From positions 412,891 through 476,890 of the forward strand of contig MPNW01000102.1 of assembly GCA_011800805.1 (NCBI GenBank): a stretch of 64,000 bases of DNA, in the 5' to 3' direction. Positions within the stretch are counted from its first letter, which is position 1; each line of letters begins with the position of its first letter. The DNA is from Hirudo medicinalis (taxonomy: Eukaryota; Annelida; Clitellata; Hirudinida; Hirudinidae). The notes beneath the pieces were generated by a model that saw only the letters and a program-made list of their open reading frames with translations, did no database searches and was not told the DNA's origin. A program made the position numbers and the translations under genes. Positions 18,712 to 56,300 of this stretch are shown here, one piece after another.

Positions 18712-21700
18712 ATGAAGGATAACAAAGATATTAGTTGCTACTTTACAACAAAGCACTCATGGAAAGGGAAGTTAGTTTTGTCTAGATTTTACGGCCTGCG
18801 TTGAAGTTGCATTGAAGTATGCGCATCTATTTTGTTGTGCAGATACAAAAGAATATTTTCTGTGGGCACCAAAGGTATAACTACGTATAATCCCTCCACC
18901 CTTGAGATAACAAACCAGTGGCAATATGAAGAGTTTGTCAGCATTAGACCAAATGACAAAATGCCAACATCAAATGAATTCTGCATAATGATGAAGAAAG
19001 GAGCAAAAAAGACCGACACAATGAGGTTTTCAACAGAACATAGATCTGATCTTCTGACTGAGGCTCTGAGGCATCACAAGTTTTTTGCTGAAAAGATTTT
19101 CTCAACAAAAGTCTGACCAAAGTTTATTTGTTTGTTTATGTAGCATACCATTTGTACATCATTTGTTTTTAAGTGAATTAATCACATGTTGCAATTGTAG
19201 TTACATTCAAAATAAACTTTGGATTATGACATTGTTTTCATTTTCAAGATGTTCCGTGCTTGCAAACACCATTGGTCGGACAAAAAGCTGCGTGTTTTGC
19301 TCGAAGCGGGACCGGCCTCGTTGAATCAGATCGATGAAGCGAGTGGTAGAATACTATGCTCTTACGACTACAAGGACATTGAAGGCTTAGCTCTCGTGAG
19401 TCTTTTGCAGCGTCCGACTTCAGAATAACTCGAAGTTAATTACTTCAAATTACATGAAAAATGCATTTTATTTCAGTTACTTAGCATGTGTAATAGTACA
19501 ATGTGTAATAATATTCATGTCGTACTAGGTCAAGGACTATGCCAATGGGGTCACCATCATCCATGGAGGGTTTGGCAGACTTGTGAGAATATTAAAAATG
19601 TGAAATTATAGTATTATATTACATAATATTAATTAAAAATAATTTCCAGCACTTATTTCAAGTGGAGAATAAAGATGAGTTGATAAAAGCCATTCAAGAC
19701 ACAGCATTTAATTACATTGGAATAAACATCAAATTAAGCAGGGATGCAATTTCCTTTGAACATTTTCTACTTCAGAAATTTGGCAAATACAGGTGTTCTT
19801 GATTACGAATTCCATGACTTTAATAAAATCTTCCCTTTGTGAAAGATTGTGCTTTTAGGCCTGATGAGATGACTCCATTGCAACGCGTAGTCTAATAAAA
19901 CATTTTTCCTCAGCAACGACGAGTCGTTGACGTCGTGCTCCGAATTCGTGGTGATGAAGTTGAGCACGAGAAGCGACCGTCCCGTCAAGAGGAACTTCTG
20001 CTTGACGGAAGCTTGCGTCGTCGAACGGGATCCGCTGACCTACAAACCTGTCACCTGCAAACCTCTCTGCGACGTGAGTTTCGTGCGTTCGTCGATGTTC
20101 GCGGTCACTCGAGCCCGGTTGTCTTTTCAGATTTTTTCGATCGTTCGCTCATCAGAAAACCCTCAAGAGTTGAGCATTGAATACGTGAAAGGGGAGATTC
20201 GAAGGTACACCTCGACAGACAGGTGTGTTGTTGTCGTTGTCATTGTCGTTGTTGTCGTTGTTGTTGTTGTCGTTCTCAAAGTCGTCGTTGAGAAGTCTGT
20301 TCGATCCTTTTGCAGGGATGCACTGCTGGCAACGTTGATGGACGGAGTGAGGTCGTCAGGCAACAAGGATGTCCACATTAAAATGAATCCAACCAACAGG
20401 GGGCACAGATTGGGTACGAACATTAAATTCTGTTCGACGTTCGGAGCTTGTCGGTCTTTCTCGATCGTTTTGTCGTGCTCGTTCGGCCGATCGTTGCATG
20501 ATCTTTTGAATTATTTATTGCAGGTCCGTTCACAGTGCCTGTAGATGAAGAAGTGGAGAGTCAGCATCTCAAGTTCCTCCAAAATCCTCCGAATGGCATG
20601 ACTCCGTCCGAGACTTTGTCGAGATTCAACAGCAACATTTCTTACAGCGGTCTGCTTCATGCAGTCACAGCAGATGTGAGTTTATTGTTGGTTGACGTTA
20701 TAAACGGTCACGATGTTCATTTATTTGAACAAATTCTTGGAAGACGTTATTTGCCGAGAACAAAGAAAAGTTGATCAATGGAGCCATATCCTCTCTGTTG
20801 GATGGCACTAATGACGTTAAGACGATGCCCCTCGAAGAACTCGAGGCACAGCTTCAGGCCCTCAGAAGACTAGTGGCTTCAAAAGCTGGTTTCTCAGCCT
20901 TCACCACCCTGCCCCAGTAACCATTTATTGTTTGGTGATGAGGTTGGTGACGATGATAGTGATACCATGATGTTTCATCGTTTTAGTATGAGAGAGAAAG
21001 TTGGTCTAAAGGTTGTGAAGGCATTGAAGAGAAATGATCTCAGCGTCAGTCATGCTGCCATTGACATGCTGTGTTCACTCATCCAGGTGATTTATTACCT
21101 CGAATCACTACTCAATTAAATCATTAAATTGTATCGCTAAAAATCTCAACTCATGTATATTCATGAGGCATCATCAAGTTGCATTTTGAAATGCATTGCA
21201 GCCCATGCACGAGAACTATGATCTGAGACAGGAGCAACTCAACAAGTCCTCGGTGTTGTCCTCAAAAAAGTTCCTTGAGAATCTCTTGGACATGTTCACA
21301 GGCCACGTGGTTAGCATGTCCCGGATGCTTTGTTGTTGCTAATTATGATTTATTACTCACATTACAAAATATTGGCGTGCAGGTTGGCCGAACGGGTTGC
21401 GTTCCTGCATGTGTCGGTAATGGCAATGGTCGTAATGCGTCGTGTTCGAAACCCAGCCTGCACTGCCACGAGCGCCCTTGGGAAGGAGCGCTATGTAAAT
21501 GGTTAACAAAAAGCACCTCTGATGCCATGCATATGGCACTGTATAAATGAAGTACATTTACATTTACATTACTCACATTACAAAATATTACTCACATTAT
21601 GAATTATTACTCATGGATTAGGCTTGTTTTTAGATGCGAGGTTCAGGAGCTCTCGTCATATGCGCCATGCTCGACTTCCTCACGTACTCACTGTGTGCAC

Positions 21701-24700
21701 CATACAGTGAGACAACCGACGGGGCCTGCTTCGACACCCTTCTTGAAATGGTAGCAAACAATGGCAGATCCATTTTTAAATTGTTCCAGGTAATACTACT
21801 CTGCCTTGTATACTACATATTCATAGTTATTTATTATTAATAAATTAGAAATTATATTTCTCGATGTTTTTCAGCATCCCTCGATGGCCATCGTGAAGGG
21901 GGCAGGATTGGTCATGAAGGCCATCATAGAGGAGGGCGACGCAGAGATTTCCGGTCGAATGCAAGATTTGTCGCTGGCCGAGGGAGCTCTCCCGCGCCAC
22001 CTGCTGACGGCATTTTACACGCAAAGTACAGACAACCGCCTCCTCACGGCGAGGTGCGTCGAATTTAATTTGCGGATTTTAAAAAATTTACCGCACGAAT
22101 TAATGCCACATTTGTCCGACGGACGTCGCAGGCAACTCAGCAGGCAATTGATTGCTCTTTGGGTTACCGGACACGAAACGTCACTCTGCCTTCTCAAGAG
22201 GATTTTGGTAGGACCTCGTTATTTATGATGTCAGTCCCTCGTGTTTATGAAAAGGTTACTGCTCCTTAGCCGTCCGGACTCTTGATGTTTTTGGACTCTA
22301 AGGATGAAGTTCCAGAAGATGAAATTGATAGGATAACTGTACGAGACAATCTCAAGCTTGCTCAGGTGATTGCCAAATAAGAGATATTGATTCTAATAAA
22401 GAAGTATATTATCAAACATTTTTGTTAATAAGAATCTAATAATATCTATTATATTATTTTAAAAATATTACTGTATTATCTTTAAATCAAATACTAATAA
22501 ATGAATGTGAAATTGAATTTAGGAGCAGGAAGACAAGAGAAAGAGAAACATTCATTGGAAACAGATTGAAAAGCACATTGAAGACCTGCTCATGCATTGG
22601 AAGTCAAGGATTGGGATGGAGAGTGTTCAGGTGAGAGAAGGTTTGGGATGAGTTGAATCCTGTTGTTATTTCATTTACTGTTTTTGTATTCTGTTGTTAC
22701 TTCATGTTGATAAGTTCAATCCTGAACTTCATGTTGTTGATGAGTTGAATGCTGTTGTTATAGAACATATTGTTGCACCAGGCACAACAACAGGAGAAGA
22801 TTGTTATTCTAAGAAAGAGGAGGCAGAGAATAAAGCCAGTTGCCAATTGGAAACTTTTCTATTATCAGTTCTCAAAGGATCATGCCAAATCTAACCTCAT
22901 TTGGAACTTTAAGGTAGCTTTGCGAGCGCTCGCACGTTGCTTCGTGTTGCGATGAACGTTCGGGAGTCGCACCTGGATTTCATCGGCCCCTGGTTACATT
23001 TGTTAATATTTGTCTCCTGAAGCAGGATGTTAAAATGTTTGGTAAGGTGTGCATTTGAAATAGTTATAAAAGAACAGCCATGCAAATATCAAATAAAAGC
23101 TGATGCGTTGAACTGCTCGTGCTGTTTATGCTGAGGTTGAAACATAAACATGAGTCAATAAAATGTTGAAAACATAGACGAGGCTCGTTCGAATTTCAGA
23201 CGAGAGAGGAGTTGAGGTGCGCTCTCGAGGATGAACTTCGGATTTTTAATGCCGACAGGGATTTGTCCGGAAGTGCCGTTATTTCTTGGAACCACCACGA
23301 ATTCGAGGTCCGTTACGGCAGCCTCGAAGACGAGATCCGGATCGGTCGGTTGCAACTCGTCGAGTCGACGAGTCATTCGTTCGTTCGTTGCAATACCTTT
23401 AAATTCGTCGTTAGTTTAACGAACGGTCGATTAATTGCAATACTTTTTAACAGGCGATTATTACTTGAGGATATTATTGGAGGAAGATGAAAAAGATGCG
23501 GGCAACGTCATTAGACAATCGTGAGTTTGAAATCATTTTAGTGGCATTTGGTTTCTTGGAATTCGAGAGGAATTCTTGTTTCTTGTACGTTCAGATACGA
23601 GTTCTTCAACGACCTCTACCATCGTTTCCTGCTCTCCTCAAAAGTTGCCATGAAATGCATGTGTTTGCAGGCCATGTCCGTCGTCTACGGGAGGTGTCAC
23701 GAGGAAATCGGGCCTTTCAACGACACGAAGTCGATCGTGTCGATGCTCGAAAGGGTGAATATTTGCAATGATTCGATGAAAATAAATTGATTATTGAAGG
23801 ATCTTGTTTATTTTTATCGTGCAGTGTTCTGATAGGTTGGAGAGGGACAGGCTGATTATATTTATCAGCAAGTTGGTGCTCAATAAAGTAAGACCAACTC
23901 AGCCTAAGAGATTTTGTTACATTACGAAGATTAAATTGTAAAGAATTTATATTATTTTTAATTTATATTGTTTATTTTATTATTTAATTAAAATACTTAA
24001 AATTTAATTAAATTAAAATAATTTACTTGGATTATAATTGTTTCAGAGCAACGTCAAAGATGTGATAGATAGTAATGGCATAAAGATACTTGTTGATTTC
24101 CTAACTCTTGCCCATCTGCACACTTCGAGAGCTATGGTCCCAACACAAGTATTGTTCCTTTTTAGGATGTTAAGAATCGTTCGATGTAAAAAATTGTTTA
24201 AAAAAACTCGCAGACCAACGTCATCGAAGCCGCACCAAATTCTCACCGAGAAGGTGAGAAAGAGTGGTACTTCGGAAATGCAGACAAGGAACGATTGGGA
24301 CCGTACGGCTTCGAGGAGGTTGTTGACTTCAAATAACTTAAAAGCAAATCATTCGAGATGCTTCGTGTCTGCAGATGCAAAGGTTTTGGAAAAGCGAAGA
24401 AATAACGGCCAAGACGAGGTGCTGGGCTCAAGGTATGGAAGGGTGGCGACCGCTGCAACTGATACCGCAACTCAAGTGGGTCCTCGTGGCCAACGGTCAG
24501 CCTCTTCTAAACGAGAGTGAACTGGCTATTCTCATTCTCAACATGCTTATCAAGATAACAGAGTTTTACCCCAGCAGGTAACAATTAAATTGGTTCGTGC
24601 TTTAAAAAAAATCTCCGTCGAACGCAGGTCGGCCGAACGGATTGCATTCCTGCGTGCGAGCGTAACGGCGACGGTCGTGATGCGTCGTGTTCGAATCCCA

Positions 24701-34377: not shown

Positions 34378-37300
34378 TTACGATTCATTCACGTCCTTTT
34401 GATCTGTGAGAATTTTTGCTGTAATAACACGAAATGATCACAGCTTATATTAAAACATATTTTATTCTTGGAATCCAATCATTCCTTACCTTTAACGCTG
34501 AGAATTCTTCGTTCTTTAGCCTTCCTCGTAAAGACTCTAGTTGTTCCAAAACTGCAAAAGGTTTCCCTCTAATGTCTTCTATTAGAACTGAGGTTAAACA
34601 ATCACTCACCATCTGTACTTCCTATTAGGTCCAACGCGGATAAGTTGATCAGGAGTACACATAAGTTCGGATTGTTAACTCTTTCATTGAAATTGATTGA
34701 AACGCCGCAGTATGAACAAAGTTCTTCGAACTCTAAAGGAAGATTATGAATCTTTTCTAGTATTTTTGCTTTGCATGCGTCCATATCAAAAATCTGTTCG
34801 ACGTAGTTATCATCATAATCAGTTAAGCTATGTTTATGTTAATGCCACCTTAAATCCTTAAATTTTACTTTACTGGGAGCCTCCACAATCTTTTCGAAAG
34901 ACCCTTCGTGTCCGTTTCCGGGGACTTCAAAATAAGAAGGGACATAATTCATCTCCACTCCAGATTTGAGTTTCATAGCAAATATGTTTCCATGTTTATC
35001 CCTCCTCAGAAGCAAACCCTGCAATTAATTTCTTTTCAGTTCAACGAAAGAAATTTCAATGCGCCAACCTCGTGAAGATTATCGATGCTATTCTTTCCAA
35101 TCCTTGTCAGCCAATTGAAATCTGGACTTTTTAATCCCAGTCTGAATTTTAAGAACAACATTTTTAGTTACTTTTTATGAAAAAGTGAAAGGAATTGTCA
35201 ACATTTTGCCATCATATTTATTGGCGCTGTTATTAACAGTGACTTCGTCGTCTCTGACGTAACACTTCACTGCGACATTTTCCATTTCCACGATGATGAT
35301 TTTCATCCAATATGTGCTGCAGAGTGTTGGAAAAGAATCCAAACAATCTTTGATCAAAAACTGGAATATGTAATTTTAGAATGGAGGTCTACAGTGTTTG
35401 CAAATATTTATTAATTAAAAGAATTTTTGCCTCAACTGCTTTAAATTACGAATTTAAAAAAATTGTTATAGCCAGAATCAAACCTTTAAAATTGGCTTCA
35501 CTAAACTTCTACCAACTGGTTCGATGTGAACGGATAAAGACTTGTAATATTTTTCGGCGATAAATCTTCTTATGTGGGCCTGACACTTCCTGATTTGTTC
35601 TGTTTTTAATTCTACCAGCTGATTCAATCTTCTCGAACAAGCGTAACTGAGGTAAATCTGTTGAAATAATAATGTCGTGATTTTATATTTTATTGCAATA
35701 AATAAAATTACTATTATTATTTTAATTTTTGATTATTCTTCACTTTAATGTTCCCAATTTCATGAAAAATATTGACGATTAAGAAATTATTTTCGATTAA
35801 GAAAGTATTTATAATACTCAAAAAATAACATGTCAACAAGAAATGTTGAGAATAAATTCTAAATTAAATCAACCGATTTCAATGAACGAATCACCTTCGT
35901 TTTTCCTATGAAATACTCGTTAAGCCCCAACGAAGCCAACAATTTCACGCAGTTACTGAAATTCATCTCGGAGTTTGGCAGCATTGGCAAGCTAATAAGC
36001 TTATATCTTCAGGGAATAAATATAAATATTTTAAACGATGTTTAATAATTACATGATTGTTGTTGGTTATTTAATAATTTAGTAAATAAAGGAAATAAAT
36101 CATTGAATCAATCTCAAGCACTTATCGCTAACTCGGTCAGAAATTGAACACTGTCGAGAGAGATGTAATTCGTTTTACGGTGGAGGGCGATGGTGTTTGG
36201 GATGTTGTGGAGTTGTATTTGCTGCTCAACGAACCTTTCATCGAATGACTTTAAGGAGTTCTTAGGCGTTGGATTGATACATCTGTTTAAACAAGACCTT
36301 TACCTTTATCTTTACGACCATTTCGAAACATTTCTCCATCCGTCACAAGTGAAGAAATAAAATTATTTCCTTTATAATTATCAGATAAATCAATTTACCA
36401 ATAGCAAATAAACTTATTTACCTTATAAGTATCGTGGGCATTTCCAACTCCGAAAAAAGTTCTTTGAGGCTTTGCTGCAAACATTTGTTGATTTGATTTA
36501 TTCGGCTGAGTGATTTAAAGCCTTGAGGTTGAATAGAAATGCTTCAATTTACATGACTCCGCATGGACTTAGCTACTAAACCATTTGCCTATAATGGTTA
36601 ACTCAACCTAATTTAATGTCATAATAATATATAATGTTATAATAATACTTAATTTAATATGGTTTAACAACTTATTATTGCATTATTATTATTCCATGCG
36701 TACTTCTTTAAACCATTTATATGGAGAACAAAGAAAAATAGAGTTTAAATTATTGTTGTTTGCTTGCATCAGCTGAGGATATCATTCTATTCTTTCTTTT
36801 ATATTATGTTATGCTATGCTATGCTATGCTATGCTATATTATATTATACTTATATTATATTATTCTTTATAATGGTATTTATTTCTTCAAAAAATACATT
36901 AAATTTAATGGATCTGTTGAGAACCTTGAAGTCATGTGTCAGAAAAATTTCCTTCTTTGACCAATTCGTGTCTTTTTTGCTGAGTTATTAAATTTGATTT
37001 AGTTTTAATGAATAATGTTTGCACCTGTTACGAAGATGTAGGCAGATGCAGGTTAACGTAAATAATTAACGTTCTACATCAACACTAACTCAAGTAATTT
37101 ACAGGCAATTACAGTAAAATTACAATTAATTAAATACAGTAAATTAAGTCACAACGTTTTTTGCGAGGTTTCCACTTTTCTACCCGCCAACAAATTTGAT
37201 GCATCTTCTTGTCTAAAAATGTAAGACGACAAGTTATTCGTAGCATTATTAATTTCCCAAAACGACTAAACATTGCCATTACTTATTAATCATTACTTAG

Positions 37301-40300
37301 TAATTCTTACTTATGATTGGGTTTGCAACGAAGCATATTGATTACAAATTGACATTCAGACTTGTTAAAACATTCAATCAAGTCATTGGCAAAGGATCGC
37401 CCCCGATTTTTTTCAATAAATCCATGAATGGAGTACACGACCTATAAGCAGAGGATATTATCATCATTATTGTTATATATTATTACTTCGTACATTCGTA
37501 TGTCTTAAGAGTATTTCTTACTGGGCACAAGGTGTGGTTGATGACAAATTGCAAGCTGTTGTTTTCTACTTTATTAAAACCCTTGTGATTGTCAAGGTTG
37601 TGGTTGATTTGTTGAATGAGGTCGAGGTTTGAATGCTTGTGTGAAGACGTTACTTCGTCGACGATATTCAAGAATGTTCCTGGCTAAAAACGTTCAATGA
37701 GAATAAATTATTAAGAAGTGATATTAAGAATAATTAAGAAATAATGTTAATGCTTAAGAAATAACACTAGTAATAATTTAGTAATAAACAAAATAATTAA
37801 TAACAACTCTATTCCACCTCAATCAGAAGATCAATCAAGAGGTCATTTGTGCTGAATTCAACTTCGTTTATTGAATCCTGACTTGCTGGGAGAACGTGGA
37901 GACTGTTGTTAAAATGTTTGAACAAAACATGGTTGGAATGCCAGACGAGTTTTTCATTGAACGAGTTGATGATCAGTTGCTCCAAGTGGTTGCTCTTCTT
38001 GTGTTCGAATCCGAACGCATCCAAGATGTTTATCTTTAACTTTTCGAACCTTTTGGTGATTCGATGAGTGAGAGATGAACATTATTTTGAAACATCTTCA
38101 AATTACCCCGAATTTTTTGGAAAGAGGTTGTAGTTTATCCTAAAGATGATGAATGTCACCATTTGTTCGTACAAAAACCTCACAGAGGAATCACAGTTCT
38201 GGGATACTTCCTCCAAATTTCTTAAATTTCTTACTTTTTCGCCTAAAAAAATGTCTAATTTACAATTGTCAGCCAAAATGCTGCTTTAAATTTAAAGTTG
38301 AACTACAGAAAATGTGACCTTTTTCGATAATTTCTTTTGTCAGCAGAAACTTTTCAAGTTCATCCACATCGAGTTTCAACAATCTGCTAACTTTAGAAAT
38401 TCAAGGTTTATGAAATTAAAACTTCAGCTATCATTTACGTATTTATATTTTTAAAACATTGTTGTGCCAAAATAACCTGTTTTAAGGGTTTTATCACTTT
38501 CAACAGAAACATTATAAAATGAGTTTTTACAGAATTTCATGTCTTTTAAAAGAATCACAGACGTCAGGATGTCTATAAGATCTTCTATTTCCTATTTCAA
38601 AATAATTCCCCTTTTGAATTGTTTGATTTTAACCGTAAACCGGCATCACCAACTTTCGAAGTAAAGCCAAATGAAAGCAGGCATTGGACAACATCCTTCC
38701 ACTGATAAGAAAATGATTCTTCTTTCGTTGACGCAGAGAAGTCTTGCAAAATATTCGCTCGTGAAAGTCTGGAAATGGTTCATGATTTTATGGAGTGATT
38801 GAATGTTGTGAGGTGTTGAAAAGAACCTGTGTGAATTTGGATCTTTTATTGAATTCTTGGAGAGTTTCTGTTTATCGACTCCAAAGAAATAATAGTAAAA
38901 TATGTGGAAACTCTTCTCGCCAGTTTCCAAATTTGTCAGTCTCAATGATTCGAGGAGGTAATGCTTCACATTAACTACAGTAAAACATGTTTAGAATTTC
39001 CATATTCTCTCATGCACATGTTTATTACACACTGAGTATTGTATATTGAATACTAGGTGAACACTGTATATAGTACTAAATGCACACTGTATATTATATA
39101 ATGTACTAAATGCACACTATATATTGTATATTGTACTAAATGCACACTATATATTGTATATTGTACTAAATGCACACTAAATATTGTATATTGTACTAAA
39201 TGCACACTGTATATTATATAATGTACTAAATGCACACTATATATTGTATATTGTACTAAATGCACACTGTATATTGTGTAATGCATATTGTCCATAAAAC
39301 ACCATTTAACCTCCTATACAACTCCCATCTTCGTTGAAAAACAACTGAAACAACTTGACGCATCTCGTGCTGTTCGGATGAAGGTCTGTTTCGGCATTTG
39401 TGAATGCTTCGAGGAGTTTGTTCAACTGAAATCGTGCGTAAAAGCTTGAATGATAATTGGTGAAACACAATTAGGGGAAAATGATTGGTGGAAAGTGATT
39501 GGAGGATTACAAAAATCAACCATCATCATTTTTTTCATCAGCACTTTGTCTTTGACGCATTCCGTCTCCGCCATTACTTCCATGATATTTTCACAGCAAT
39601 GAGATTTTCCTTTATAAGCAATAACAATAATATTAACATTCAACAAATGAGTGACTTTAACTTTCAAATGTGTGCAGATTAGCTGAGAGTTTTGAACATA
39701 TGACTTATGTTGGCGGTAATGGCGGTATTGGCGGTAATGGCGGTATTGGCAACATTCGTAAGGTTCCGTGCTCGCAGCACAGCCCAGCTTGCACTGCCGT
39801 AAGTGCTCTGGGATGGAGCGCTATATAATTGGCCAACAAAAAGCGCCACTGAAACTGCATATGGGGCTATATAAATGAACTACATACACACTAAGTTTTT
39901 GTAAAATCATATTTCATCATAAATCGATGAACTTTTTCCGAAAAGTAATGAAAAAGGGTTTAATTCTGCTCAGTTAAATAAAGTCACTCCAACACCAAAT
40001 TTCTAAAATCACATATAAATAGCACTATGTAGTCCAAATCATCTCAGTCATGCAACGGCCTTTAACCAACTAAACTAGTAGCTCTATGACTTCCTGAAGC
40101 CTTCCTTTTTACTGAAGAACTTTTTGGACCTTCTGGAGCTTCATGAAACTTTCTAGAACTTAGTACAAGTCTCGAACTTTCTGGAACAATCATTGTTTTA
40201 AAGCAAGTAAGCTTCCTGATTCAACAACATTAATTGCTCTTCTGAAAGATCTCCAAGTATGATTTTTAGTTATAGTGTCTCATAAGAAAAGTGCTTGTAA

Positions 40301-43300
40301 CACTGAAAGAAACAAAGATCTCAATTTCAAGAATCACATAGTAAAAGAACTGTTCCATTGAAAGAACAATCATAGAAAAAGCAAGGCGTGCAGGTTGGCC
40401 GAATAGGTTGCGTTTCCCGCATGCGGTGTAATGGCAACAGTCGTAATGAGTCGTATTCGCAACCCAGCCTGCACCGCCAGGGAGCGCCCTCGAGTAGGAG
40501 CGATTGATGATTGATGGTAAAGCGATTGAAAATGCCTTCACATCCCATTCTGATTTATAAGGCGCTCAATAGGTCGGCTAAATGCAACAACAAAAATACA
40601 AAACAGCAGGATACCACTAGAAATCCGAATTGTTGGTCGCTATCCGAATAAAATGCCTTGAGCATCATTCAAAGGAGGGAAAAAAGACAAAAAAGAAATT
40701 GCGAAAGCAACATGTTTAAAACATCGAATATCCTTATATCCTGGAACAATGTTCATTTGTCTCGGGTTGCTTTTTTTTTTTTAAGAAACTGGAAGATTTC
40801 CTAAAGTCAAGTTTCAGAAAATACTTGAATGGAATTCAATACTTGAATAGAATGCCATTCCAAGAGCAATACTGTTCGAAATTTTTAAATTCATCTACAG
40901 ATAGACGAACCATTAGTTTACTGACCAAATCTACAGTACTTATGTAGCAGCTTGCAGGTTCATGAAAAAGCATAATACTCTGTGAAGAAATTTTGGAATC
41001 AAAAACCATCAGTGACTGAAAATTTCCAAATCAAATCAACATGCAGAGCGGGCAATCAAGTGCCTTCGAGATCTTTATGATATGAAATCTATATAAAGAA
41101 GATTAAATTTGTTTTGTTTAACAAAACATAATAATTGCATATTATGCCATAATTGTGTTAAATAATCCGCGATCTTTTTCATTATATAACTATTCGCACT
41201 TGTAGAATTGAAATGTAAGTTTGTAATTGTAGAGTGGTGGATTTAGAGGGAACGGGGAGGGCCCCCCCCCCCGTGATTTTTAAAATCTAAGGTAAAAAAT
41301 CTGTTTTAATTTAATGAATTTATTTTATTTCAATAATTCACGACTTTGGACGAAAGTATTAGTAGCTGTGGTAAAGCTACTAGAATTGTCGTTGTCGATC
41401 CATTGTTGTAACTTCTCAAAAACCGTTATTATTAAATAGGTAATGGTTGGTAAAATCAGATCACATAAAATTTCCGAATTTGATAAACTTTCTCTATCAA
41501 ATAGCATATCGAAATTTGAGTTTTTAAAAATAATTCACTCAAAAGCTATCGTAACAAATCATAGAGCTCCTAAAGATGTGCCGATCACTGTACCAGTAGA
41601 GGTAATAGTTGATAATTTTGGTAGATTAGGTCGTCTTGCATTTTTTAAACTGTAACTTTGAATAAATTTGAATACAAAGTTCCTGAAACCATTTTATAAT
41701 TAATAAGCAAAATGGCTATAAAATATCAGCCGGCTTAGCATTATTTGCATCAACAAGGGGTTTAGAGATTGGCAGTAAGGGGTCCAGGTTCCAGAGTGCG
41801 GCCCCCTTGCCAAAGTATTTTAGATCCGCCCCAATAATTGTATATGCTATGTTAGAGCAATGAACTGTTAAATGCTTCAAAATCTGCGTAAATACCATCC
41901 AATTACATCATTACAAATGCAAGATAACGCTTCTAAAATATTTGGAATTTTTTAGGCTTATTAGGTAAAATCGAATTAATTACCTCTGATTTTTTTTGGG
42001 GGTTACCTTTTTCAAAGACTAAATCAAATTAATGTCTTTTCCATTACTTTTAAAGAAAAGTTCATCGATTTATGAAACAGGAACATGGGTACCAAGAAAG
42101 TTATAACCATAACGCACACACTCCTCCAAAGCATGAAACAAACCCGATCCACATACTCCTGTTGGAATAACACAGCATTTATAGCCCTTCAGCATTTTTA
42201 AATGTGCTCGTGAAGCAATGTCAAGCATGGATGGAACCACTTTCTTCACAAATTGATGATGTTCCTGTAAACGTAAACACCTTTAATACTTGTTTATTAT
42301 TTACATCTCATTCACCTTCTTCGAGTCTTTAATTGCTCCTCCTGGATTGACTGATATCAGAACATTTCTAAGGTACGTCTGTGGAGTAGCAACTCATTTG
42401 TGGATGCTCTATCACATTTCATTTCTTCAATTATGACAACACATTAATTGTGTTGTTAAAACAATACTCGAATTGCACATCAATATGATGATATTATTAC
42501 GTATGACACGCCTAACTGATCTGATTATCCTAGGAAAATATTCTAGCAGGTTCATGATTTTCGAAATGGCACTAAACGCAAAAGGTTTTCTCTTTAAATA
42601 AATGTTTACATTATGTCGCCATTCTTGAAATATTTTGCGACCTTGAAACGGGCATTCCATCTTCTGATATAGCCACGGGAGGGCAAAGAAAGGAAACTGC
42701 CCTCTACCCCTGTCATTATGCCCCATTATATTTGTCCAAACCATTATACTTTTTCTTAATGTGGGGGTATGAATAGCTAATCTCAATAAAATAAAAACAA
42801 TGGAACTATTACATATTATATGTTAGTAATTTAGTAATTTAAATTAGTAATTTATTACACATTGAAAATTTCGATAACTAAATTACTAATGCTTTTGTAT
42901 TTTTTGCCGATCATTCGAGTGCCTTATGTATCCGAATAGAATGCGAAGACACTTTTTAATCGCTCTACCATTTACATAGCGCTCCTAATCGAAGGATTAG
43001 CAGGTTGGGCTCCGAACACGACACATTGCGACTGTTGTCATTACGACCGCATGTAGGAACGTAACCCATTCGGCCAACCCGCACTGCTTTCCTTATATGT
43101 CGTTAGTGTGAAATTATTTGTTTGTCGTTATTCCAGCATCAAACAAGAATTGAATAAAATATTAAAATTCATGTATGCAATGACGATCATATACCGTTCG
43201 TCTTGTTATGCTAGAGAACTTTAATTTAATAAACAAGAAAGCAATCAACTACAAGTTAAATTTATGTTCCTGTTCAAGATTTAATGAGATTGATTTTTTT

Positions 43301-44350
43301 TTGCTTTGATCATCCATTATAATATCATTCAATATAATATCATTCAATGTAATATCATTCAATGTAACATCATTCAATATAACATCATTCAATGTAATAT
43401 CATCTAATATAATGTCATTCAGTAGGCAGCTTTTTTCAGCACACTTTTTCGTAGCAAAAAGAGCTGGCGCAGCTGGAGGACAGGTTTCCAAAGTTTTAGA
43501 AGGTTTTAACAACTGGGAAAAGGCTTTGGGTAAAAAGGCAGGTTTTGAACAGAGTAATGAATCAAAGGTCATTTAAAGGCAGAGCAGGCACATCTAAATT
43601 TTTTAAATAAAAAAAAACATGTTGATGTAATATCAATAGAAAAAAGAAAGATAGGTTTATGTACAAAAGACGTACTTTGCGCTCCTGCATGCTGCTAATA
43701 TGGCAGTCGTAATGTGTCGTGTTAGCAACCTAGATTGTTAAGGGTTAACGAAAATCGACTCCGCTCTATGCATTGGCACTTTATAATAAATGAACTACAT
43801 GTACGACTGCAGTCTGATGGAAACTGGTGTAAGATAGGAGTATAATAAATATTTATTAAAAGCAAATAAAATCGTGCCACCCACTTGCGACTGACCACGT
43901 TTAAAGCGATCATGAAGTTCTCTGCAGATGTCTGCAATATCAGTCCCATCAACATCCAACAAATTGAACTTGTCCTTGGTCATATCCATTGAAACTGTGA
44001 ATAAAGTCACAATTTTACATCTAATAATATCTGTTGACCAGTGAAGCTTAACGAAACTTAATCATCGAATATCGAAATGTAACTTTAATTAGCTCCACCA
44101 ACAATAAAACATATTATTGATGACAACGACATTAATAAACGTCATAATAAGAATAACGATATTGATAAACTCGATATTACTTCGGGCTAAGTTCACATAA
44201 TTAAAAGTCTTAGAGTTGAAACGAACCAACGATCAGCTCGTCTTCATTGAACTTATTTTCGGAAGCATTCAGTAGCCATTTCACTTCTTTAAAATTCAGC
44301 ACGGCATTGTTCGGTCGCTTAACCAGAGCTATAAGTAAAGACGCCTGTTG
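34378..44350 (-). CDS. Divergent myosin with a degenerate P-loop, IQ region and MH2-like tail
   Basis: Exons read on the minus strand in order: ~44227-44350 (5' end open, no ATG), 43885-43994 (MDMTKDKFNLL, RELHDRF), 42316-42378 (TYLRNVLISVNP), 42093-42264 (P-loop position reads PTGVCGSGLFHA), 39521-39609, 39311-39425 (LLEAFTNAETDLHPNSTR, switch I), ~38930-38975 onward (KHYLLESLRL, FHIFYYYF), ~38500-38760, ~38330-38400, ~38110-38240, ~37809-38040 (DAFGFEHKKSNHLEQLIIN, switch II/relay), 37483-37680, ~37320-37440, ~36425-36480, ~36125-36245 (converter), ~35905-35990 (IGKTK), ~35530-35660 (one IQ-like helix), then four tail exons 35175-35361, ~35065-35145, ~34870-35022, 34602-34798, and perhaps 34378-34419. 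Phases agree at every junction I checked from 44227 to 39311. The landmarks leave no doubt about the motor fold. Loss of the P-loop Lys and Thr suggests it binds no ATP, so it may act as a scaffold. Confidence 0.85.
34602..35361 (-). other. MH2-like C-terminal domain of the myosin (four exons)
   Basis: Part of the myosin gene, given separately because of its interest. The tail reads YWMKIIIVEMENV, then VTVNNSANKYDGK, LGLKSP, RIGKNSIDNLHE, GLLLRRDKHGNIFAMKL, KIFDMDACKAKILEKI, FEELCSYCGVSINF and CVLLINLSALDLIG. This follows the order of Smad MH2 landmarks: W.I.YYE, VTVDG, CLGLLSN, HIGKGV.L...GG.V.A.CLSD, KIF....F...L, FE.VY.L..MCTI..SF, and WIE.HL..PL..LD. The spacing is similar and the splice phases join cleanly. 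I inferred this by pattern, not by a profile search. The SxS phosphorylation tail of receptor Smads is not seen. Confidence 0.5.
36271..36298. repeat. 28-base repeat shared with position ~32758
   Basis: ggattgatacatctgtttaa plus acaagacc occurs here in a myosin intron and again near 32758-32775 and its flank in the intergenic region, same orientation, about 3.5 kb apart, with flanks that differ. Confidence 0.7.
36806..36838 (+). repeat. ATGCT pentanucleotide microsatellite
   Basis: About five copies of atgct/atgtt in tandem, then (ttata)-type sequence, in a myosin intron. Confidence 0.85.
39062..39290 (+). repeat. 30-base minisatellite in a myosin intron
   Basis: gtactaaatgcacac recurs at 39073, 39103, 39133, 39163, 39193, 39223 and 39253, exactly every 30 bases. 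The unit also carries tatattgtatatt. Because 30 is a multiple of 3 the minus strand stays open (a YTIYSVHLVQ-type 10-residue repeat), but it lies between conserved myosin exons and is intronic. Confidence 0.92.
39690..39885 (+). repeat. SINE copy, head replaced by a ggcggta repeat
   Basis: A short ggcggtaatggcggtattgg tandem leads into SINE sequence: cagcccagcttgcactgcc, gagcgctatataattgg, aacaaaaagcgccactg, gggctatataaatgaac. Sense is opposite to the host myosin. Confidence 0.75.
40385..40510 (+). repeat. SINE copy, 3'-truncated
   Basis: ggcgtgcaggttggccgaat head with intact A-box-like sequence, B-box region changed to cgtattcgcaaccca, cagcctgcacc acceptor strand, ending at gtaggagcg. The tail is missing. 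Myosin intron. Confidence 0.8.
41225..41835. mobile_element. Short DNA-transposon-like element with inverted ends
   Basis: The left end reads agtggtggatttagaggg...gagggcccccccccc. The right end read backwards gives ggggcggatctaaaa...aagggggcc, so the ends are imperfect inverted repeats about 600 bases apart. The inside has one plus-strand open frame (41443-41655, 70 codons, ending FGRLGRLAFFKL) with no transposase motif. It sits in the large myosin intron. Likely a non-autonomous element; the superfamily is not determined. Confidence 0.5.
42955..43086 (-). repeat. SINE copy, minus orientation
   Basis: Reverse complement of the family: catttacatagcgctcctaa, ggttgggctccgaacacgac (B-box), cattcggccaacccgcac (A-box and 5' end). 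Located in the myosin intron between the ISVNP exon and the 43885 exon, in the same sense as the gene. Confidence 0.8.
43318..43427. repeat. 15-base minisatellite
   Basis: Seven or so units of aatatcattcaatgt with small changes. The minus frame gives LND.xLND repeats (a 107-codon open stretch 43249-43572), but it lies between myosin exons with no conserved protein around it. Confidence 0.85.
43680..43802 (+). repeat. SINE copy, degraded
   Basis: gcgctcctgcatgctgctaa, cgtaatgtgtcgtgttagca, gttaacgaaaatcgactccg, gcactttataataaatgaac: the middle and tail of the family with many changes. It ends about 80 bases from the 43885-43994 myosin exon. Confidence 0.65.
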
Positions 44351-44409
44351 AAGCTTGTGTAGTTCACCATAATTTGTAACACAGAAATAGGAAGCTCAAC
44401 GTAATTTCA

Positions 44410-45800
44410 ATGGAAGAGGAACTGGACGGAAGAGAAAAATTTGAAAGTTTTTTAGAAAGCATTAAATCATCCGATGTGCAGAAAAGTTTGATTTCCTTAT
44501 TTTGCAGATTCGTTGACGTGTCCTTCACAGCAGGGTCAGTGTTTTGCCCTGCACTGGGGTCTGTCCACAGCATTGTCAAAATGTTCTACCCGAATTACAG
44601 TCAGGAGGAAATCATGAAGAACTTTGTTGACCTCAAGCGAATGATCAACAAGATGAACAACAAAATGATGGAACTTCTGTTGAGGAAAGATGGAATCACA
44701 TCAAAACAAGATTCCTCGATGACATCGAAAGTCTCGAATCAGCAATTCAAATAACCTCACTTGCCCTGAAAGCAGAAAAGGAAGAATTTGCAAAGAATTG
44801 GATGGAAGAATTGATGGATCGAGGCAGAGGACTCATGCGACCACTGAACCACTTGCTGGACGGAGTTGCAGGTGAGGAAAGCCAATGTGAATTTGACGAT
44901 CAAATTTTAATCTCTTTTTCCAATTACACTGGCGGTGACAAAAGAAAGATCGAAAGATTTTGCTTGTACTTAGATCAACTCCTTTTAAATGGGCTGGCTT
45001 CTTTATGCGTCTACCTTACTTTTAGGAAAGGAATTGAATGGTGCCATGAAGTCGTTGACAGCTTAAATTTCGAACAGAGACTTACGAGGTCAGTTGGAAA
45101 CATGATGGTAGTTCTAGAGAGATGCGAAAAAGAATGCACAATAAACATGCGCAAGGACGCAAAGGAGATTTTAATGAAAGAAACAGGTGATGTTCAAAGC
45201 AGTCTCTTAAAAATCTCAGAAATCTATTTCAAGAAATATTATTGGATGGAGACCTTTTTCATATTTTACAAATTAATTGGAAGAAATTCTCAAGTGAACC
45301 CGAAAGATGTTTTAAGCGATAAAACAGCGGTTGCTTCTGTGCACAGCACGGATGAATGTGATGGGCAAGACTGTGATTATGCGATTAGCGAGGGCGGGAT
45401 AATAGAACATTTTGATTCTGGTAGCGACAAAGAAAAGGTTGACGAAGTCGACTTCTCCAATCAAGATGACAACAAGCGTTTTGTTCTCTTAATTTTCGCG
45501 CGAAGAAAACCTGTCGAAGAGACGTGTCTATCAAAGTTGGAAGCCACCAGAGTAGCAGAAGATTCTATTAGCCTGAACAGAAATTCAAGAACAGCTTTTA
45601 GAAAAATAAAAAACGAACTCGATTCCAAAGGAATAGCCTACTGGGGCTTGGCCGTCATGAAACATGCCGGTCATCTTTGGACATCTCGTGCAAGCATTTT
45701 CAAATCTGGGAGCAATGAAACCTGCGACGTCGTTTGGGTGGTGAAAAAGAGTTGCACTGTTTGTATTTTGTTGGGAGACGGAGACAGTCAACTTCAGTGA
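44410..45800 (+). pseudogene. Intronless unknown protein gene interrupted by a frameshift
   Basis: ATG 44410 opens a 114-codon frame (MEEELDGREKFESFLESIK, with a hydrophobic VSFTAGSVFCPALGSVHSIVK segment and a helical NKMNNKMMELL stretch) that stops at 44754. A second frame runs to 45800 and stays open upstream of its own ATG (44802) to about 44684, where it reads on as the natural continuation. A one-base change near 44680-44700 explains both. The second part holds SNYTGGDKRKIERFCLYLDQLL, an acidic middle and a KRFVLLIFARR / AYWGLAVMKHAGHLW region. No intron, unlike all neighbours but the light chain. It faintly recalls rapunzel-like helical proteins of animals; I would not name it. Either a sequencing error or a recent pseudogene. 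Confidence 0.6.
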
Positions 45801-46354
45801 CGACCCCAACCTCAAATTCTTGAGCAGTCCAATCAACTAATTTTATAATTCATTGTAAAACTTCAATTACTTTGTTTGCACTATCTGCATGATTTGAAAA
45901 TAAACAAGTTATATTATGCCATCTGCCTAAAGGCTACAACAAGAACAAAGAAATAAACTTTCACTGAAGCTTCAAACGAAAGCAAACCTTATTCCCCCAT
46001 TTATTCATAAAATGCCAAACATTTCAAAGTAACTAAATGGTGAAGGTTTCATATTCAGACACCTCCAGTCAAATGTTGATTCAGCGACAATGGTAACTGC
46101 TAACTTAAACAATCTCTAGTTTGCTAACAAACCATATTTGCTAACAAAAATTGCTCATTTGTATCTATTTCAATTCACTTCTAATGTCTCATAATCAAAC
46201 AAAAGTTCACTTTTCCATTCAAAAAGTGTGAAAACATGTAACAAAGTCATCTGAAAGAGTTAACATATAAATGACATGAAACCAATCTTTATTTAAAATA
46301 AATTGTGCCAGTACTTGCATAACCAGCAAATCCTACACATATATGAGTTCATCT
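45801..46354. other. Convergent spacer
   Basis: No exon. aataaa motifs at about 45899 and 45952 may end the upstream transcript. Confidence 0.5.
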
Positions 46355-49300
46355 TCAATCAGCTTCAGGTGGTGCATCAAGGTCTGTATAACTCACGACA
46401 GCTCTCGGGTCTGCTCTCATTCTGAAAGGAATGGCAACAGGTGATCAAGATTCAAAACATCCCCACTAAAATCCACTCACCTGTCTCTTCTTGGAAGCGC
46501 ATGCATGTTTTCCCTCTCCCTCCTGAAATCTGCTCTGTATGAATCATGTCCCCTCACGGCAAATGGAGTTGGATAAACACCTGAGAAATGTTATCGACAT
46601 TTAATTTCTCTACTAAACTCATTCAATTATTTGACAGATCTTTTTATTAAGCAATTAATTAATTAAATGAATCTGACATCCAGGTGAACAGTTTTAGAAT
46701 AAGCTAACTTTATCTAATTCTAACACGATGAATATCAAATATCCTGCTTATCATGAGATTTCGAGGTTTTCAAAGTTCAATTACTTACCAGGATAGAGCG
46801 GTGGCCGATAGAACGGGTGGTGAACAAATCCATGGGGAATGGGAGGAGGCAGTGGATTGGACACCTGTCGTGTCGATGGATGTTCAGGCAGCTGCAATCT
46901 TCTTGGATCGTTGAGATAATTGTTAAAATAGGCAACCTGTTATGACCAAAGTGATAAGTGTCAACATTTTCAGACCAATTAGTCATCATAAAAAAAAAAA
47001 AATATAAGAAATTTAAAAACCTAATAGGGAAATTTCAAACACAAAAGTACAACAAAAAACAAAACAAATCCTAACTTCTTTCTTGACATCATCGATCTTG
47101 TCTTCGTGCTTGCTCAAAATGTGCTTCTTGACAAACTCAGGTCCTTTGAATTTCTTTCCACTGAGAGGACACAACCATTTGTCCTTTCCAAGCTCCTGCA
47201 TGTTGGAAGCAATGAACTTCTCCACTTCTTCCTCCTGGTTCTTCCTGCCCAACTTGATGGCGTCGGCATCATCGAGTTCAAACTTCGGATTCAAGAAAGG
47301 TCCTATCTTGTTTTCAAATGAGCTCATCCACTCAGTCACTAGAAAGTGTAAGTGCATTCACTGATCTTTCATCAAATGACAAAGCTGATTTAACTACAAC
47401 TCACCATCCCCAATAGTAATTTTTGCAACAGTGTTGAGACCCCTGGCATGTATTATGCCACACCTGTGAGGCATTTCATCTTCATTGGGGTACTCATATG
47501 CTCCGTAGTAGTCGATCGAATAAACAATCCTCAGATACAACAGCATGCGGTCCAGCACCTGAACAAATGGAATATATTTTAATGATCGTCCTGGCCATAA
47601 TTTTGGACTAAAAAGGCATCACCATCAAGAGTTCATCATCTCTTTCAATAACCACTTCAGAGCTCGAATCTTTCTCCTTTCCTGATCCTTCTCCTGCAAT
47701 AAAATATTGAGTATCTTCAATCAATTTTATTGATAATAAAAAAAAATTAAATCTTCTGTAATTGAAAGAATAAAAGATACAAATATTTAAAGATGTAGAG
47801 GGACAAATTGCTCACCTAGGGCTGTATCTTCATAGTCAATCTCATCGACCAAGAATTCTGTGATGTTCTTAAGAACTGGATTGTTGGTGACAAATCCCTG
47901 AAATACATAAAATTAATATGTAACCACAATAAGCATACATACATTATGGTTGGCCGTTCTACTGCATATCCACTGACAACTGCACTCATGAAGACATGTT
48001 GATAAAATAATCTTTTGTGACAATTCTGCACTATTCACACATGGCATAAAACTCACAATTTTCTGCTCCTCTTTTTCTCCTGTAGACTTCTCATCCCACA
48101 TTTTCCACCTTTTGTCGAGGCTTTGAATGATTTTAGCTGCATGTTTGATGTCTTGTTTAGCCACTGATTTGTGTACAGATAGTCCGTTGACAGCCCTCAC
48201 TCTCTGCCTCAATTCTCTGTTGACTATGGCACCCATGTCACAATCTCTCACCTATGTTCATCAAACAATCAATATTAACCCATTTAGCAATGATTTAATC
48301 CAACACTTACTCTCAAATTGTTCAAATTCCAGCAGATGTCCTTTACATTGACATTCCTATCAAATGTTATCCACCCGCGTCTAGCAAATCTCCTCTCAGG
48401 CTGAGGGTCTTGTATGCTCACCCTAAGATATCCAGGGTATCTCTTGCAAATCTGCATTAGTCCATCATGGGTTTTGATCATCATGACATCCAAACTACTT
48501 GTAAAAACATAACTCCCACCGATTCCACTTCCTGCTTCGTGATGGAAGGGATAAGATTCCTCAAAAATATGGACTGTGTTTTGTGAAGAGCTCTTGGTTT
48601 TGGCTCAACAGAAGTTTCCCCTGATGCATTAGTTAATCAACTTTCAGATCAACAAAATTTTGTGGCATATATATATATATATAATCATTAATTACCTTTG
48701 ACTTCATCAGTTATCTGATTCTCCTCTGGATCTTTATTTGATTCTCTTTTAGTCTCGGTTTCCTCACTGATTTCAGGCTGTAACAACATCTATGGATACA
48801 AACTCAGAACTCACCACAAACAAAGGAACATAAAACATACCTGCTCCTTGTTCTCAGCCAAGCTGTCATCCTCTGTTTTGGATGGACAAGTCTATTTTAG
48901 AAAAAAAATCAATAAGATGCAATCTTGAAATACAATACTATAATCATCTTTATTTTACCTCCATTGCAACAGATTCTGACTTCGTTGCTGGTGAGTCCTT
49001 TTGGTCTTGATCACTGGTGAAGCAAATAGAAAGATAAAGCAGCAGATGAAGATACTCCTCGATAACATCTAATTCTCACTTCTTTTCAGGGTTTTCTTGA
49101 GCATTCTCATTAGCTGTCATGTCTTCAAGGATGTCAAGAGCTTTCAGATCAAATTCTATGCCTCCCTCCATTAAAATAACGGCTGCAATAACGAGCGGAT
49201 TAACATTTGGTTGCAGAGTATGCAACAATCATGTAAACGAAAGCAAGCCATCATATGATCTAAAGATAAAATTAGCTCCAGAAAGCATGATAATATTTGA

Positions 49301-53351: not shown

Positions 53352-56300
53352 TTAATCAATAGGTTCAGCATCATAATCGTGATAGCTTATGATTGGTCTT
53401 CTATCGACAAGATGCCTGCAGACAATAATCAACGATTAAAAATGTAAAAATAAATACAATCGTTTCTCATCAATACTGTCTACGTTAAATATGAATTTAA
53501 CAGCCACTTACCCGCTGTTTCGATCCCCAAAAGGTATATTCTGCGGATATCTTCCTCTTCTCGGATATTGTTGATGTCCGTTGAAGCCTATCACATTAAA
53601 TATTAACAAAATAATATTATTGAGCAATTGAGTGATGAAGTATTTTACTATTATCCTTAGTTAACTTTTTGTTATATAACATTACTACTAACATGGACCA
53701 TCGATTTTAAATCTTTCGTATGAATTATCAAATACAGGTTGAGGTGGCAACGCTGAAAAGTGATGGTGGTTTGACGGATGTTCGGGCAGGCTTGGACGAT
53801 TGGGATCACAAAGAAAATTATTGAAGTAGTTTATCTGAAATTTAATGTAAATTTAATTAATCGCGAATGACACACAAGATTTCCTGTTTTAACTAACCTC
53901 CTTCTTGACATCATCGATCTTATCTTCGTGCTTGCTCAAAATGTGCTTCTTGACAAACTCAGGTCCTTTGAATTTCTTTCCACTGAGAGGACACAACCAT
54001 TTGTCTTTTTCAATCTCTTGGGTATTGGAAGCAATGAACTTCTCCACTTCTTCCTCTTGATTTTTCATACCAAAATCTAAAGCTTCTACACGGTTCAATA
54101 CATATCTTCTATTTAAAAAGGGCTGTGTATTTGTCTCTTGCATCTTTAGATATTTATCAACTGAAACATCGAAAATGGATTAGATGTAGTCGCTTTTATA
54201 TGAGTAGGATAAAAAAAAATAAGTTTGGCATCTATAAGCTACCTTCAAATTGAGTGAAATGTTGTTTGGCATTAACACCCCTCACATGTATGATGCCACA
54301 TCTGTGAGGCATTTCGTTCTCCTGATGATATTCATAGCTTCCGTAATAGTCAATGGAGTACACGATTCTGAGGTACAACAGCAAACAATCCATTACCTAT
54401 AAAAACAATCGTAATAAAATTTCGGCTTTTCACAAATCAAGTAAATTTACAAATTACTTTTAGAAGTTCACCATCTCGATCAATTTCTATCTTAAATTCT
54501 TGATTGTGATTGTGATTGCTAACATTCCCTGAAAACATTAATTGCAGTTAATTTCCAAAGCTTTTCTTTTGATAATGACCACGAGAACACAGAAATAACC
54601 ACGATGTGCAACCAACCTAAAATAGCTTCTTCGTAATCGATTTCGTCTACAAGGAACTTTGAAGCATTTCTTAAAATTGGATTTTCATGAACAGAGCTCT
54701 GAAACATAAATTTAAAATTGTCAACGACGTCCATTACATTCAGTTTTTTTTCGATGAATTTATGTTCTAAGTGATACTAAAAATAAGGCTCACAATTTTC
54801 TGCTCCTCTTTTCCCCCTTCAGACTTCTCCCACATTTTCCACCTTTTGTCGAGGCTTTGAATGATTTTAGCTGCATGTTTGATGTCTTGTTTAGCCACTG
54901 ATTTGTGTACAGATAGTCCGTTGACAGCCCTCACTCTTTGCCTCAGTTCTCTGTTGACCACCGCACCCATGTCACAGTCTCTTATCTGAAAAAGATCAAG
55001 ATCGTCAGTATTTTTCATTTAAATACAATAAGGACACCTTCAATTAAACGTAAAGAATCCAAACTCACACGTGTTTTATTAAGATGTTCACATATCTCAA
55101 CAATGGCAGCATTCCCGCCAAAAGTAATCCAGCCCTTACGACTGAACCTTTTCTCAGGCTCTGGATCTTGGACATACACTCTCAAAAACCCTGGGAAATT
55201 TTGGCAGGTCTGCAAAATAATGACACACATCTAATTTCAAAACCGTCCATAGGAATTCGATTCTTAGAGAAATCAACTTACCGATTTTATTTCACTTGCT
55301 GCGATTAGAGGGCTGATATTTTTTAGAAAAATAGATTGAATTTGTGTTTCGCTTGATTTATTATCCATGAGATTTGATGCTACAATTTTAGTTTTAAGTT
55401 TGATTGATGTTTCATTGAAATCGTTAAAACTTTACTTCATCACTTACCTAGATCGAGTAGTTTTTCAAGTTTTTCACTACAGCTTGTGTCAAGAGTCACA
55501 TCCGACAATTTACCCATACTCAAAAGCTTCATGAAAACATCTCTTCGTTGCTTGAAGGAAGAATTTCTTTCTTCTTCCCTGGCTTCGTATTCTCCAGGGT
55601 AATATTTGCATTTGAACCTACAGCATAAGAAAATTAGATAAAACCAGCGTTATTAAAACCGGCGCACTTGAAGATATTTTTATCTTCGAAACAGGTGGGA
55701 GAATGCTTCAAGGGGAATTTTTAGAACGTCATTTAGCTTCGAAGTTTATCACTTACCAATCCTCATCTTTATGCTTAAGAAAAAATTCTCTGATCTGGTC
55801 TTTGTTAAATTCCGCTAAATAAGTTTTATATCTTTGCATGCTGTCTTTCTCCGTTACATCATCTTCCAGAGTTAAAACGAAGCGTTTAAAAGTCAGTTTT
55901 GGAGGCTGCGTGGGGTAAAGAGCTTCAGGACTGCGGTGAACATCAAATTGAGTAAAACATTATCCAAATTTAGTTGATTTATAAAATGTTAACATTTCAA
56001 ATCCTTGAACTTACCAAACGTACATAGATTGAGGCTGAAATGGGACTGGGAATGGAGCCACTTCGTTTCCACGCCTACAATTATATTACAATATTCGTAA
56101 TTAGTATTCATCGTAAATTCAAACAATATAAAAAAATGATGGTGTTTACCCAAAACGCCTGAGAGTTTCATTATTGTGATTGTGAGTATTAGGACCCCAT
56201 TTAAAGAAATTTCTGTCATTCCTACCAAATACAAATTTTTCATAATATTTTGCATTTTAAAGTTTGATGTCAGTCGAATATAGATTTAAAATGAAAGATT

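Follow-up and report, generated by a model that had tools for sequence, protein, structure and literature searches.

Introduction

Myosins with a C-terminal MH2 domain have been catalogued in several lineages, and the gene described here, predicted on the minus strand of a 64,000-nucleotide stretch of DNA from the leech Hirudo medicinalis (assembly GCA_011800805.1, contig MPNW01000102.1, positions 412,891 to 476,890; in the following, the window), joins a myosin head with a degenerate P-loop to a tail that resembles the N-alpha-MH2 domain of the Drosophila protein Expansion. In the passages available of Sebe-Pedros et al. (2014), a C-terminal MH2 has been reported on a Salpingoeca and an Oscarella myosin, choanoflagellates have been described as having no Smads, their single MH2 domain sitting on myosin, and MH2 has been proposed to have begun with myosins (PMC3942036). 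Kollmar and Muhlhausen (2017), as far as their text could be consulted, have defined class-80 by a C-terminal MH2 and assigned it to Ambulacraria (echinoderms, hemichordates), and the MH2-myosins of annelids and molluscs have been found polyphyletic, sister to or among the class-36 chitin-synthase myosins (PMC5583752). An initial annotation of the window, which knew of no well-characterised family with the order myosin-MH2, had overlooked that this architecture is already in print in these two papers.

The N-alpha-MH2 domain has been described by Beich-Frandsen et al. (2015), in whose account the trimer face of Expansion is obstructed by the N-alpha helix (PMC4388265). According to the accessible parts of a 2023 study on chitin, the Expansion domain is needed for chitin export in flies, Rebuf devoid of N-alpha-MH2 is located at the apical membrane, yet no extracellular chitin is deposited, N-alpha-MH2 alone is cytoplasmic and inactive, and the WGTRE motif and coiled coil of Drosophila Kkv have been examined together with Expansion/Rebuf (PMC9894549). 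The word myosin is absent from the main texts of both papers, and in the literature searched, mostly outside subscription journals, neither a publication linking Expansion to myosins nor one giving a function of MH2-myosins has been found. A paper in which both words, Expansion and myosin, occur a single time each deals by its title with a chaperonin (PMC10870801).

Gene Model and Architecture

The motifs by which the initial annotation had placed a myosin at 34378 to 44350 do lie there, on the minus strand, the sole other match among the five longer ones being FHIFY at 33003. The gene is a prediction from the DNA letters, built without a transcript, whose exons have been joined by hand from these motifs with splice sites picked so that the frame stays open. 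In this chosen model, one open frame of 944 codons without a stop runs through 23 coding exons between 43989 and 34389 (Table 1); each of the 22 introns is GT-AG and their phases match, bearing out the earlier count of more than 15 exons with clean phases. The start codon is uncertain, as the first in-frame ATG lies in exon 1 (43989) and a possible 5' exon without ATG at 44344..44227, and a small exon may be missing from loop 2.

The motor had been rightly recognised: Pfam Myosin_head matches the 944-amino-acid protein with an expectation value (E) of 1.8e-73 and 248.4 bits (cut-off 33.3), and the match runs unbroken from position 14 to position 678 of the 679 in the profile. An earlier model of 951 amino acids without exon 8 had reached 2.8e-62 and 211.4 bits, split over two stretches, and since the score rose once exon 8 was added, the joining of the exons is supported. 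With a myosin profile made of 35 database hits and the window protein, 13 open reading frames (ORFs) of the window lie above the inclusion threshold, all of them in the myosin gene, a search that is partly circular as the window protein is itself part of the profile. The match of the gene to the myosin-plus-tail pattern is not chance, and the myosin-MH2 architecture is firm for a gene predicted from sequence. The single IQ-like helix that had been claimed behind the motor was not recovered, Pfam giving none in the gene at E up to 1. A 30-base tandem repeat (7 copies, 39065-39277) is found inside an intron of the gene, and two overlapping plus-strand ORFs without a Pfam match (44380-45797) stand head-to-head with it.

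Myosin Head

At the P-loop the head reads GVCGSGLF, compared with GESGAGKT, and the functional motif is absent. In the alignment of the 35 database hits, of which many are near-identical plant sequences, hence not independent, and one has a gap at the P-loop, Lys is found in 34 of the 34 relatives with a residue there and Thr in 33 of 34, where the window head has Leu and Phe. Switch I has been altered to HPNSTRC, the first Asn (34/34 in relatives) being replaced by His, and switch II (DAFGFE) has retained Asp, Gly and Glu. The loss of the P-loop residues is a firm reading of the letters, a loss of ATPase is very likely as a prediction, and so degenerate a P-loop, as predicted, bars the term working motor, not myosin ancestry. 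Since the myosins on contigs C61 (GESGAGKT) and C113 (GESGSGKT) have kept an intact motif, as found for at least these two in a pattern search of five loci, P-loop loss is not general in this genome; myosins with non-functional P-loops have been mentioned in general terms in the consulted part of PMC5583752.

The best match in the first protein-collection search has been NINAC (5.3e-34), with other myosins trailing by no more than about three orders of magnitude. The T of STR in switch I is common to 4 of the 35 hits, all NINAC (two NPNSTRC, one NSNSTRC and one NNNSTRH). The label class-III-like, which rests on this best hit and on switch I and not on a tree, agrees with the myosin-III-like placing of MH2-myosins in the available passages of Sebe-Pedros et al. 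(PMC3942036). The head differs from class-III (NINAC) in that no N-terminal kinase has been found, neither in the model nor in 20 minus-strand ORFs of at least 35 amino acids at 44213-46590. Throughout the genome (133 Mb, 1557 contigs), the motor has matched 20 places among the best candidates scored, which are 15 own exons and 5 places in other myosins (C61 twice, C424, C984 and C35; 26-38% identity), and a near copy of the motor was not among them.

Tail Domain

The initial annotation had read the tail as a Smad-type module. Compared with solved structures, the isolated tail has matched Drosophila Expansion (4r9p, 1.4e-6) and no Smad, and a profile of two tails (window and contig C311, see below) has reached Expansion at 2.2e-18, followed by five unrelated chains at 0.34 or above, with no Smad up to E 10. 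Only after Expansion was added to this profile have 23 Smad chains been matched, the best being Smad4 (3.8e-8), and because the Smads are reached once Expansion joins, Expansion can be regarded as the bridge between the window tail and the Smads. Direct scoring has given a z of 19.8 against Expansion and of -1.2, 0.0, 0.2 and 3.7 against four Smads of the same genome; hhalign has returned 98.5% for Expansion and 15% for the own-genome Smads (collinear, E 0.0017). A Smad-type tail has been rejected on these grounds: no Smad without Expansion in the profile, z not above 3.7 and the low hhalign value.

Other features of the predicted tail have also been compared. Measured as the gap from Phe to Trp/Cys, L3 spans 9 residues in the window tail, 14 in C311, 12 in Expansion and 18 in an own Smad, the published L3 counts being 11 and 17 (PMC4388265); the tail ends in QKFSQIKRT with no Smad C-terminal S-x-S, residues that align with the extra N-terminal helix of Expansion are present, and an MH1 domain is not among the Pfam matches of the 944-amino-acid protein up to E 1. 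A search of the tail against NCBIfam has given no match. Used as a query of the genome, Expansion has pointed to three places, namely the window tail, C311 and a Smad, all of them weakly (E 0.25, 0.36 and 1.1). We consider Expansion, with its N-alpha-MH2 domain, the one solved structure that the predicted tail matches convincingly. A supposed third Expansion-type gene on C1166, with an E of 0.71 and three stops, has been discarded as apparently a chance match.

A Second Expansion-Type Tail

A second tail of this type has been located on contig C311, in a gene at about 25582-20700 on the minus strand. It is matched weakly by the window tail (0.083), its MH2 score of 38.3 bits exceeds the cut-off of 25, and alone it matches Expansion at 3.1e-11. 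Both tails share 31% identity (62 identical residues) and five intron positions with their phases, which are phase 0 before FLIKD/VFLKE, GLLL/GIEI and IFD/VYD, phase 2 in GKI and phase 1 before VLE/VLK; as the C311 exons have been chosen with the window gene as a guide, this agreement is partly by choice. The neck exon before the C311 tail carries VFLRHYH and an IQ motif of 20.0 bits, just below the cut-off of 20.3. A motor for C311 has been looked for along both strands of the 64-kb contig, and only the neck ORF exceeded the inclusion threshold, with the window and its 13 passing ORFs as the control, a control that has the window protein in the profile. One ambiguous base occurs on C311 between 12.5 and 64.4 kb. 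The C311 gene could have descended from a form with a motor that it has lost, or it could reflect a fault of the assembly.

Chitin Setting and Proposed Mechanism

Two chitin synthases are found in the genome, one on C823 and the other on C53. By eye, both carry QRRRW and WGTREVK, behind which comes a charged, coil-like stretch; no myosin head has been found in the 10-kb stretches around them. Our tentatively preferred reading is that of a class-III-like, non-motile and actin-anchored scaffold, which in the cortex of the cell would present its Expansion-type tail to chitin synthase. The head would bind no ATP usefully, yet hold actin in the manner of class-18 myosins, and would stand in for the apical-targeting part of Expansion; the tail, like its counterpart in flies, would draw the machinery of export to chitin synthase. 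Placing would fall to the myosin head and licensing to the N-alpha-MH2 tail. We infer the chitin role of the predicted protein from homology and genome content.

Comparison With Described Systems

The gene shares the order of head and C-terminal MH2 with the class-80 myosins, the annelid and mollusc orphans and the proteins of Salpingoeca rosetta and Oscarella carmela, compared here by description only, and neither a dead P-loop nor an Expansion-type tail figures in the available parts of those descriptions. With Expansion/Rebuf it shares the tail domain, as seen in the best sequence match, the residues that align with a putative leading helix, the short L3 and the missing S-x-S, whereas in Drosophila this domain is N-terminal, has no myosin head and is followed by other motifs. 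Class-18 myosins (Myo18A/B), proposed to be scaffolds or brakes, likewise have altered nucleotide motifs, and according to the consulted portion of one source their ATPase is negligible, yet they are located on actin structures (PMC11112018); they differ in class, in tail and in the P-loop changes. Class-36 chitin-synthase myosins, near which the lophotrochozoan MH2-myosins fall in the motor trees of the accessible text (PMC5583752), share the link of myosin to chitin, but there the synthase itself forms the tail, whereas the window tail would be a regulator.

Alternative Readings

Several observations weigh against the preferred reading of a chitin-linked, class-III-like scaffold. The MH2-like match foreseen by the initial annotation has been seen, but below the Pfam cut-off of 25, with 18.5 bits (0.0025) in the whole protein and 21.1 bits (0.0004) in the isolated tail, so that the predicted MH2 fold rests on the match to Expansion, and a Pfam MH2 search of the genome has returned 13 places on six contigs, five of which read as Smads by eye, with the window tail and C311 not among them. 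The next structure match of the tail is Vps38 (0.006), followed by myotilin (0.69), both aligned poorly. The best solved motor has been myosin-X and not class III (8.5e-42, obtained with the 951-amino-acid model), and loop 2 of the head is very short. For the full architecture, a collection of 5.8 billion proteins has yielded motor matches only (35 among 7993 scored candidates); in the same collection no relative of the tail was found to E 1 among 792 candidates or to E 10 among 980, these searches being of the share-a-word type and weak for a divergent tail. Lastly, Expansion has also been credited with a role in receptor tyrosine kinase signalling (PMC4388265).

This last point likewise favours a possible, if doubtful, alternative, namely an actin scaffold, likewise without motility, in which the MH2 tail would contact different signalling partners at the cortex and have no link to chitin. 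The dead P-loop speaks for it, MH2 folds are general interaction modules, and choanoflagellates have MH2 on myosin despite having no Smads (PMC3942036, in the passages available); the tail, however, is specifically Expansion-type, and the documented role of that domain in the accessible part of PMC9894549 is chitin export. The actin-related scaffold supposed by the initial annotation is probable for this pseudo-motor with its MH2-like tail, the module being of the Expansion type and not of the Smad type. That the gene is decaying into a pseudogene, as the divergent motor, the weak database matches and a paralogue found without a motor might suggest, is quite unlikely, since the chosen model has 23 exons free of stop or frame break and only canonical splice sites, and since tail residues are kept identical with C311. 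Although the whole motor fold including relay, switch II and converter would suit a slow or regulated yet working motor with an MH2 cargo domain, this is very unlikely in view of the lost P-loop Lys and Thr and the change of the switch I Asn to His. A role of the tail in transforming growth factor beta (TGF-beta) signalling, through oligomers of the Smad kind, is extremely improbable, since the sub-threshold Pfam match, the Expansion-containing profile that reaches Smad4 and 22 more Smad chains and the collinear, low-valued hhalign alignment are opposed by an end without S-x-S, an L3 gap half that of the own Smad, the missing Smad match when Expansion is left out and the trimer face blocked by the N-alpha helix in Expansion.

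Coordinates and Further Observations

Table 1. Exons and motifs of the predicted myosin gene, in window positions.
Feature	Position	Strand	Basis
Exon 1, motor start, first in-frame ATG at 43989	43896..43989	-	gene model, profile search
Exon 2, TYLRNVLISVNP strand of motor	42316..42392	-	gene model, profile search
Exon 3, carries degenerate P-loop	42093..42264	-	gene model, alignment
P-loop GVCGSGLF (consensus GESGAGKT), Lys to Leu, Thr to Phe	42136..42159	-	alignment
Exon 4, donor uncertain	39521..39609	-	gene model
Exon 5, LLEAFTNA and switch I	39311..39425	-	gene model, profile search
Switch I HPNSTRCVK, NINAC-like	39354..39380	-	alignment
Exon 6, FHIFY	38827..38974	-	gene model, profile search
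Exon 7	38654..38768	-	gene model
Exon 8, ILTSVILLKDMKF, taken in after weak profile match	38477..38591	-	gene model, profile search, Pfam
Exon 9	38319..38390	-	gene model, profile search
Exon 10	38107..38242	-	gene model, profile search
Exon 11, switch II and relay helix	37818..38049	-	gene model, profile search
Switch II DAFGFE, Asp/Gly/Glu kept	38004..38021	-	alignment
Exon 12	37522..37683	-	gene model, profile search
Exon 13, ending at loop 2	37311..37441	-	gene model, profile search
Exon 14	36422..36505	-	gene model
Exon 15, SH helices region	36133..36282	-	gene model, profile search
Exon 16, converter, IGKTK	35895..36006	-	gene model, profile search
Exon 17, neck	35484..35657	-	gene model, profile search
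Exon 18, region of the putative N-alpha helix and first MH2 strands; top genome place for Expansion query	35203..35360	-	gene model, alignment
Exon 19, MH2	35069..35141	-	gene model, alignment
Exon 20, MH2	34869..35018	-	gene model, alignment
Exon 21, MH2 up to last strand, short L3	34610..34793	-	gene model, alignment
Exon 22, C-terminal segment	34490..34551	-	gene model
Exon 23, C-terminus QKFSQIKRT and stop	34389..34418	-	gene model

Elsewhere in the window, two similar copies of an ARS2 domain lie on the minus strand at 47016-47357 (8.1e-38) and 53892-54179 (1.7e-33), perhaps by local duplication, and exons of an RME-8 (DNAJC13) gene on the plus strand at 18805-23487. Two plus-strand ORFs at 2847-3975 and 15720-16475 look related and by eye resemble sensor domains, with no Pfam match; behind the former, a weak HNOBA match (0.0005, below cut-off) has been seen, as in guanylate cyclases. 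A reverse transcriptase fragment (246-860, minus strand, 2.2e-18) and, in a tRNA scan, one tRNA-Thr (21377-21464) have also been found, and an Rfam search has given no match. In the assembly, a nuclear mitochondrial cox1 piece (C456:12202-13068) can be read well under the invertebrate mitochondrial code, and C459:20000-23000 holds an uninterrupted COX1 frame of 639 amino acids adjoining a COX2-like frame; because this COX1 frame looks bacterial by eye, DNA of a symbiont or contaminant may be present in the assembly.

Implications

The gene belongs to a kind that is known but uncharacterised, and neither the dead P-loop nor the tail of the Expansion type has been found in print for an MH2-myosin. 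A wider and rather unlikely proposal is that MH2-myosins and Expansion/Rebuf are one family, in which the arthropod regulator of chitin export would be an old pseudo-motor myosin minus its head, both states being present in this genome as the ATPase-dead myosin with its tail in the window and the motorless neck and tail on C311, and in which the ancestral, pre-Smad task of MH2 would have been the coupling of cortical actin to matrix secretion. The window gene is also a further example of a myosin head from which the P-loop lysine has been lost in nature. Its link to Expansion would give the MH2-myosins, catalogued in 2014 and 2017, a concrete and testable function in chitin export, and may offer a route for one fold between cytoskeleton, matrix secretion and the transcription factors of TGF-beta signalling.

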